DNA of 64,000 bases from Haliclystus octoradiatus (taxonomy: Eukaryota > Cnidaria > Staurozoa > Stauromedusae > Haliclystidae): NCBI GenBank assembly GCA_916610825.1, contig OU744449.1:14618952-14682951 (forward strand), given 5' to 3'. A program made the translations under genes and the position numbers. Position 1 is the first letter of the stretch. Every line of letters begins with the position of its first letter. Positions 31,838 to 34,800 of the stretch are shown one piece after another. The notes under the pieces were generated by a model. The model saw only the letters and a program-made list of their open reading frames with translations, was not told the origin of the DNA and did no database searches.

Positions 31838-34800
31838 TTACAAAAGTGTACAGACACAACTATCGCCTTTGACTTCTTCTGGGGATTTCGATTCACCAGT
31901 TTCTTTCCCATTCTGTACATTTGTTGTGTTGTTATTGTGTGTTGTGACAGTTGGTGCCTTCTGTGACCCCAATGCGATGTATATATCTTGTATCTGATAA
32001 ATAAAACAGAATAAAACATCAAATAAACAGAATATCTAAAGTTAGGCATGAAATTATTTTGTATCAATATTTTCTTTTTTGGTTGCTTGTATAATGATTG
32101 AGCATGGTCTGTAAACCTAGAGCTGATTTTGACGCAGAACAATGATTTCCAGACCTCCTTGTTTAATGTAAATAATTGAACGTACCAAGTAGGTTGGAAC
32201 CATACTAATGGGACATGTAATTTCAGGCCAAATATAATTAAGTAGACCAGCTTATTTCCAGCTCAATAGATTGAAACCCTATCAAGTCATTGTCATCGAG
32301 TGATTGTATTCATGCAATAAAGAATCAACAGCATATAACAACCCTATCTTATTTCCAGAAAAGCTATTAAAATGAACTAGGTTTGAAATTATTTATACAA
32401 ATCTGAACATGTTTGTGGACACTTTTTATATTCATTCAAATCAATCTCATATCCGACTATTTCATTACCCATCAGTAATTGAAATAATAGTTATATGGTT
32501 ATGTCATAATTATCTGATAATTATTTGCGTAAACTGATTTCAAGCAAATGTAGTTCGAGATTCTGAAGAAATTTTATTAAAAGTTTTGAAATGTAATTTT
32601 TTTGTTTTGGTCATGATTGCATGAATTTAAAGAAATGAAATCTTGACATTCGAAAATCATATTATAAAATAAGAAAACCATAACGATCAATGAGTCCTGG
32701 AATATTTTTGCTGGCCTTCAGGTTCACATGAGCCTACAGTGCCTACACGTTGTGACAGCCGGTATGTAGGATCAGACAAAAGGTTCAGCATTCTGAAATC
32801 CTAGAGACATTTCAAAATTTTCTTCTGATATGTTGTTGTTGAAAGTTGACCAGTAAATCGTAAAAATATAAATGTTCTTCTGGATTTGCTAACCTTCTGG
32901 ATTCTAGGATTCCAATATTCCTACTATTGTCTGACCCTGCCTGTATGTATGCATTGTTTTAGCCTATGTACCAGTCCATCGAAAATAACACCTATATAAA
33001 TTTGGTAAATTATCTACACCCCAATTCATACACTCTTTAGATAATATTTCATGCCACTCCTCTAGAAATAAAAGAGTGGCACGGGTGACTTCGGTAGGGC
33101 AATACCGTCTCAATTACTTTTTAATTCACACACTGTCACAAAACATCAATGATCATAAAATCACAACTCTTCATCAAACACATCATATTATCATCCGCGA
33201 CAATGATCTTAATGATAATACGACGTAATGCATATATTATATCCCAAACTGATGGGAAATTGTTGGACTGAAAATCACACATTAGTTCACAGACCCTATG
33301 GTTACAGAAAAACCTTGGGGCTGGTACACAGGCTAGCATTGTCTGTGCAGTGCATGTTATTTCATTGAATATACACATGAATAATGTCAAAGCAGTTTAT
33401 CATGACTGTAGTCATTTTTTAATTATTAAAAACTATTCAACTCACTTTTTTATCGATTATTCGTCCAAGACATCAAGTTCAGATGACTTGCATTACATCG
33501 TGAATCTAGTGAAAATCAAAGTAGCTCCTTTAAATCATTTATAGATATATGATAAACTGCTTTGACATTTAGAGCTGAAGAGCTAGTAAAATTTACTAGT
33601 TATATTTATTTTGACAAAATAAATTACTTTCTGTAAAAACCAGCTCATGAACCTCATAAAATATTCAATCATCTGTTTTACGTTCACTCTTTATTAACTT
33701 TTTCATGAACTGCCTTGTAAATTGATTGAATTACCTGCCTTGATGAGTTCATGAACATTTCACAAACCTCAACTGTTCATGAACACATTAGCAACAGATC
33801 ATTAACTCATTTATGAATTGCTCTCACAGGGGCTGGTCATTAAAATAGGGCTCTTCAATGTTAATAGATTGTGTTTCACAGTTCAAAGATTTTGTGTACA
33901 TTGCTTTAGTACATTGTACATTACGTACAGTTACTAAACATTAATTTGATAGTTTATGTTATTTTCTCAATCCCACCTTAAATTTATACAGACTATTATG
34001 AATAACTACAAATTCCACATTACTCTTAATTTAGTAAAACCTGTAAATTTATCCTTTCTTTGAATAGGGGGCCCCACTCACATATATGATATCAAGATAT
34101 TATAATAGAACGTTTAATTGAATGATATTATCATATTATCTTATGGTTCCATTATAATATCTTGATGATATTAAGTGGGGCCTTTGACGTATGCTTTCCA
34201 CACAGTCCTACTGTACAACAGGCATTTCATATCTGCTTCATATTGATATCTTTTGACAAGAGACTTTCAGGTAAGTGCACCACTATTTTGGTTCACATTG
34301 GAAGCACACTAATATTTATGTAATTAAAATGGATTATAGTTTGTTACCTTGACAACATCTTTGTTGTTACTTTCTTCCTTTTTGCATGCTGATTTCACTT
34401 TGTCCTACAAATTCATTGGACAATGGGTCACATCTAAAATACATCATCTATAATGTCACTTGCATTTTGTTACATATAACAACACTTGCAGACAACATGT
34501 TCCACTTTTCATAATGCAAAAAGATATGTAAACATTTCAGTACACTAAAACCTGTAACACAGCTCAGTTGTTCCAATTCAACAAGTGCTGCCATTGTTCT
34601 CCAAGTTTCATAATTACATGGAATGTGTGAACAAAGCTTGAAGCAGGCTAGAAGGCCTCGATATTTGCGGTCAAACTCGTCATACTTAAAAAGCATATAA
34701 ATCTGGCAAGAATATAATTTTACGCTACTAAAACAATGTAATGCAATGGTAAAAATTAAGCAATCTACACTACATTCATTAAAATCTTTCCCTAATCGAT

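Follow-up and report, generated by a model that had tools for sequence, protein, structure and literature searches.

A KLP-6/KIF28-type kinesin-3 of Haliclystus octoradiatus with a C-terminal CaaX box that may hold the motor on a membrane

Background

The principle of a prenylated kinesin is not new, as both the kinesin-7 CENP-E and the kinetoplastid KinesinCaaX are already known. CENP-E, rightly cited in an earlier note on this DNA as a CaaX-bearing kinesin, is farnesylated at its C-terminal CKTQ, and the farnesyl acts with Spindly/RZZ proteins at kinetochores, therefore a lipid on a kinesin need not mean a membrane cargo (PMC10630089). The authors infer two separate origins of its CaaX box, one in opisthokonts and their kin and one in stramenopiles/alveolates (PMC10630089). 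The KinesinCaaX of T. brucei ends in CVIM, was shown to be farnesylated and requires the CaaX for its cellular place; it was also a match in a palmitoylation screen and bears a Cys three residues upstream, and dual lipidation is the authors' speculation (PMC3206815). Regarding the enzymes, boxes of the GGTase-I type have Leu or Phe as X (PMC3206815), and human GGTase-I in yeast modified CTIL and CVLL fully and CLLL and CQLL about half (PMC11152559). Among the open-access papers listed in our searches we found no report of a CaaX box or prenylation for KIF28/KLP-6 or kinesin-3, and phrases like "prenylated kinesin" led to trypanosome papers.

Among kinesin-3 motors, C. elegans KLP-6 moves polycystins in cilia, and KIF28P of humans counts as a pseudogene (PMC12646758). 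Mammalian KLP6 was linked to mitochondria in one study (PMC8077471), and because KLP-6 is tied to cilia and mammalian KLP6 to mitochondria, the family points to no single cargo membrane. A MATH domain following the MBS domain has been described in KLP-6 (PMC9314371). When unlocked, KLP-6 remains a non-processive monomer and "other factors" were invoked (PMC10945585). It may dimerise through a mechanism still to be found, and it is also reported as processive in vitro as a true monomer (PMC12646758), so that dimers formed on the membrane seem less necessary. For the related UNC-104, a link to PIP2 of the cargo membrane has been described (PMC10945585).

Results and discussion

The window, meaning the whole stretch of 64,000 nucleotides of H. 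octoradiatus contig OU744449.1 analysed here, carries on its minus strand a kinesin gene of 28 exons and 1011 residues (coding span 52035 to 31838). All 27 introns have GT...AG borders, and a single frame runs throughout to one stop. The gene was rebuilt with an exon-chaining script and afterwards corrected by eye, with manual placement of exons 1, 2 and 26 and of the corrected exons 23 and 24; the 28 exons in consistent phase that the earlier note had described reappear in the rebuilt model, likewise in one frame. Exons 1 to 7 occupy 52035-51985, 50897-50700, 50478-50346, 49942-49863, 49111-48888, 48260-48153 and 46829-46735, exons 8 to 14 are found at 46619-46584, 46036-45966, 45580-45520, 45084-44863, 44344-44307, 43711-43631 and 43224-43110, and exons 15 to 21 at 42756-42693, 41481-41353, 40852-40686, 39489-39404, 39067-39005, 38644-38426 and 38235-38173. 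The remaining seven lie at 38055-37978, 37296-37231, 36704-36582, 35934-35767, 35057-34974 (exon 26, a helical-looking tail), 34404-34348 (exon 27, from translation and exon chaining) and 31993-31838. Exons 1-10 (45520-52035) encode the motor domain as delimited by Pfam Kinesin.

Automatic chaining had set exon 23 at 37604-37580; this candidate was false, being part of a stretch with a translation found again at 16380-16117, and 37296-37231 took its place. The two minus-strand stretches with similar translations (37604-37370, within a kinesin intron, and 16380-16117, the latter ending LDVLDKVKAELTF) may represent a dispersed repeat or a mobile-element remnant. Intron 3 contains a long three-base repeat at about 49950-50340, between the donor at 50346 and exon 4, translating as poly-Ile, poly-Asn or poly-Tyr depending on the frame. 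Downstream of the kinesin, a convergent gene on the plus strand (28714-31036) encodes two C2 domains; its last coding exon spans 30686-31036 with the stop at 31036, AATAAA hexamers follow at 31489 and 31520, and its 3' end comes to within about 150 bases of the kinesin poly(A) signal. This neighbour may be synaptotagmin-like and could start, at 25849, with a membrane-spanning segment. Elsewhere in the window, BTB, BACK and Kelch domains at 2124-6632 (minus strand) make up a Kelch-like (KLHL-type) gene, and a Ser/Thr-rich open frame of 186 residues at 57139-57696 (minus strand) appears mucin-like by eye; for the nearby frames 54966-55238 and 54326-54559, a Pfam search with an E limit of 0.05 gave no match.

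The kinesin belongs to the KLP-6/KIF28 type of kinesin-3, as the KIF28-like assignment of the earlier note had it. In a PDB search with a 990-residue model that predates the correction of exons 23 and 24, the best sequence was C. elegans KLP-6 (7wrg; 673.6 bits, E 5.2e-201), matching across motor, FHA and stalk and with a motor 58.5% identical, followed by KIF1A at 407.4 bits. The motor alone scored 438.1 bits to KLP-6, 373.9 to KIF1A and 322.4 to KIF13B. CENP-E gave 193.2 bits as compared to the 673.6 of KLP-6, and its kinesin-7 motor is thus not the one found here; CENP-E further differs in its kinesin family, its very long stalk and its kinetochore role. Likewise, the T. brucei KinesinCaaX, here likened by its description, shares with the window kinesin a CaaX box with a Cys shortly upstream, but is kinetoplastid-specific according to its authors and consists of 832 residues with a motor and a coil. 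Pfam recognised Kinesin at residues 13-359 (334.6 bits), FHA (27.6 bits, cut-off 20.7), KIF1B above its cut-off and Kinesin_assoc below it, and the corrected exons 23-25 fall where a MATH domain would lie. UNC-104 has a PH domain; among the Pfam matches of the window protein at E up to 0.1 there was none.

KIF1A/UNC-104 and KIF13B have the motor and the general kinesin-3 plan in common with the window protein, but differ in reading SSRSH and in the absence of an insert seen in KLP-6. This insert, after YWSH(D/N)G, and SSRAHT are common to the window kinesin, KLP-6 and a distant relative termed L001 (described below), and lacking in KIF1A and KIF13B, in a comparison of five sequences; we read the two features as likely marks of the KLP-6/KIF28 subfamily. 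The unrooted tree of the same five motors separated KIF1A and KIF13B from the other three in 98% of 200 bootstraps, which proves no clade because the tree lacks an outgroup, and the order among window, L001 and KLP-6 reached only 55%.

The last exon (31838-31993, minus strand, phase 0) ends at 31864-31841 with D-S-C-V-C-T-L-L, followed by the stop TAA at 31840-31838. Both translation and the rebuilt gene confirm the in-frame DSCVCTLL-stop ending that had been reported, with C-T-L-L (31841-31852) as a canonical CaaL box and, also as claimed, a second Cys two residues upstream of the CaaX Cys (31856-31858), a candidate S-acylation site. An AATAAA at 31641-31646 on the same strand, about 190 bases past the stop, is a candidate poly(A) signal. 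CTLL fits the GGTase-I substrate pattern (Cys at -4, an aliphatic residue at -2, Leu or Phe last), and T-L-L also fits the class I PDZ pattern S/T-x-hydrophobic.

A match to CaaX might be accidental, through a wrong last exon or a tail that is never modified, and several features of the locus point this way. With codon statistics taken from exons 1-27, exon 28 scores lowest of all 28 (+0.03 nats per codon). When 145 candidate phase-0 terminal reading frames were ranked, the full exon (total 1.64) stayed outside the top 12; these top 12 are mostly very short (few to some forty residues), and three are shortened forms of exon 28. A splice model for which the other 26 acceptors served as the training set (range 3.6-11.7 bits; exon 28 left out) gave the exon-28 acceptor 8.4 bits, third among the 134 AG sites of the last intron and exon 28. 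The two slightly better sites, both in the last intron (8.98 and 8.81 bits), open frames of 31 and 13 residues, which counts against a wrong exon. Acceptors inside exon 28, at 31960 and 31912, would lead to an identical C-terminus because the last introns are of phase 0 and the sites are in frame. Seven further AATAAA/ATTAAA hexamers lie on the kinesin strand between 35000 and the stop codon, within the last intron, and an earlier gene end is therefore possible. In our judgement, the C-terminal end of the kinesin as modelled is very probably correct.

The frequency of such endings was estimated from the window itself, where C-x-[ILVM]-[LFIM] preceded 26 of 8486 stops in the six frames (0.31%) and C-x-x-x of any kind preceded 301 of them; the amino-acid composition of the window or the L001 kinesin predicts the strict CaaX pattern at about 0.05%. 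In human Swiss-Prot, 1207 proteins end in C-x-x-x (PMC11152559). By itself, a single CaaX end is uncommon and proves nothing. Moreover, the gene had been picked in the earlier note because of its motif, which favours an accidental match and makes relatives the independent test.

A relative was obtained from a scan of genome_contigs, in which 49 pattern matches contained one relative, L001 (BQJP01000082.1). No relative came from viral_contigs, where pattern matches numbered 21 with the window motor, 69 with the alignment A1 and 6 with the L001 motor, and in the genome G001, which contains L001, the kinesin family had one match, the same L001 gene. The contig is filed in a bacterial MAG and is eukaryotic, with TAA/TAG read as sense; judged by the genetic code alone, it is probably from a ciliate. 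The kinesin at L001:3742-6840 comprises 1032 residues with TAA (8) and TAG (23) read as Gln and ends EKPKKKKKKEKNCIIF-TGA. TGA also terminates the preceding gene and AT-rich sequence lies past the kinesin stop; three in-frame TGA codons occur inside the kinesin, one of them at the Arg of VAVRVRPF. The best PDB match of the L001 protein is again KLP-6 (530.6 bits, next KIF13B with 359.1; motor alone 392.3 and 339.3 bits), and residues 699-967 align with the stalk end of KLP-6 (69 bits). Pfam identified motor and FHA, and neither KIF1B nor PH at E up to 0.05. The L001 and window motors are 53.7% identical.

The L001 kinesin has at its C-terminus a polybasic CaaX box, CIIF (KPKKKKKKEKNCIIF-stop). 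As in the window kinesin, the box comes after a polar tail, whereas a polybasic lysine stretch replaces the second Cys and the stalk is longer. By chance, the first relative found beyond KLP-6 would carry a second CaaX with a probability of about 0.05-0.3%, and the two tails are alike immediately ahead of the box, with a score of 47 that 2 of 1000 shuffles attained (shuffle mean 24.4); both speak against an accidental match. The L001 CaaX end and the preceding polybasic stretch favour a real prenylation signal over chance. The L001 box may, however, be convergent because the CaaX of CENP-E is inferred to have arisen twice. As a control in the genome of the window we inspected the kinesin loci L002, L003, L004 and L006; L002 alone appears to extend as far as its C-terminus, which reads RVSSH and has no CaaX box.

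Relatives readable to the C-terminus numbered two, with a box in one, and the comparison of C-termini suggested in the earlier note came out divided: L001 ends in a CaaX box, C. elegans KLP-6 does not. The deposited KLP-6 chain, a full-length construct, ends ...KSRSGSKKPKAK (SGSKKPKAK), followed by GTKL, a protease site and six His; the end was read by bridging to its apparent linker and tag, and the last K is residue 928, the full length stated in PMC10945585. The missing box in the worm adds to the case for an accidental match and implies that KLP-6-type kinesins can manage without one. Taking both sides together, we give an accidental match little credence. C-terminal tags destroy a CaaX-type signal; the KLP-6 of PMC10945585 bore a C-terminal GFP, and the worm protein has no box to lose.

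The C-terminus might instead be a PDZ ligand, with cargo held through a PDZ scaffold. KIF1B-alpha holds cargo in this manner, and the terminal T-L-L fits class I (S/T-x-hydrophobic), but a search of the open-access literature on the KIF1B PDZ motif yielded no supporting paper, the passage found concerning neurexin. CIIF of L001 keeps the Cys at -4 and has hydrophobic last two residues, in common with CTLL, and lacks Ser/Thr at -3, which argues against a PDZ ligand; I-I-F would still suit class II, so that the motif alone does not decide the matter. Overall, we regard a PDZ ligand as very unlikely.

We therefore favour, at a probability of roughly 0.55, a KLP-6/KIF28-type kinesin-3 with a working CaaX C-terminus, the lipidated tail of which holds the motor on a membrane. 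The analysis itself establishes to which family the kinesin belongs, how its gene is built, that it ends in a CaaX box, and that a second KLP-6-type kinesin has a CaaX end and a polybasic second signal; prenylation, membrane anchoring and every biochemical and cellular step are our inference. GGTase-I (or farnesyltransferase) would prenylate CTLL at its Cys; the three residues behind this Cys would be cleaved off and the new end methylated. Neither CTLL nor CIIF is mentioned in the text of PMC11152559, so neither is shown there as a substrate. S-acylation of the neighbouring Cys may add a second membrane signal. Such a lipidated tail would keep the self-inhibited, mostly monomeric motor on a vesicle or ciliary membrane, in the role that a C-terminal lipid-binding domain has in other motors of the kinesin-3 family. 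Crowding of the motor at the membrane might help to activate it. Prenyl anchors follow a two-signal rule, the second membrane signal being classically a neighbouring Cys or a lysine run, and each tail has an apparent one, namely the neighbouring Cys in the window kinesin and the lysine run in L001.

A prenylated box could also act without anchoring the motor directly, if the lipid served as a handle for a protein such as a scaffold or a ciliary prenyl-binding carrier. PDE6D is a carrier of prenylated ciliary proteins. Such proteins are known, e.g. INPP5E, KLP-6 works in cilia (PMC12646758), and farnesylation of CENP-E is needed for RZZ-S recruitment through or near Spindly (PMC10630089). The apparent second membrane signal in both tails speaks against a handle for protein, which we consider unlikely and nevertheless more plausible than a PDZ ligand or an accidental match.

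Conclusions

More tentatively, and with considerable doubt, the prenyl anchor might be an old device of KLP-6/KIF28 kinesins that predates the split of animals and ciliates and was lost in lines such as C. elegans; it would then be a missing factor that places the locked monomeric motor on ciliary membranes and switches it on. If a lipidated tail does hold this motor on its membrane, its own lipid would offer a simple explanation of how KLP-6 holds its cargo and is activated, and a kinesin-3 would join the few kinesins that carry their own lipid.
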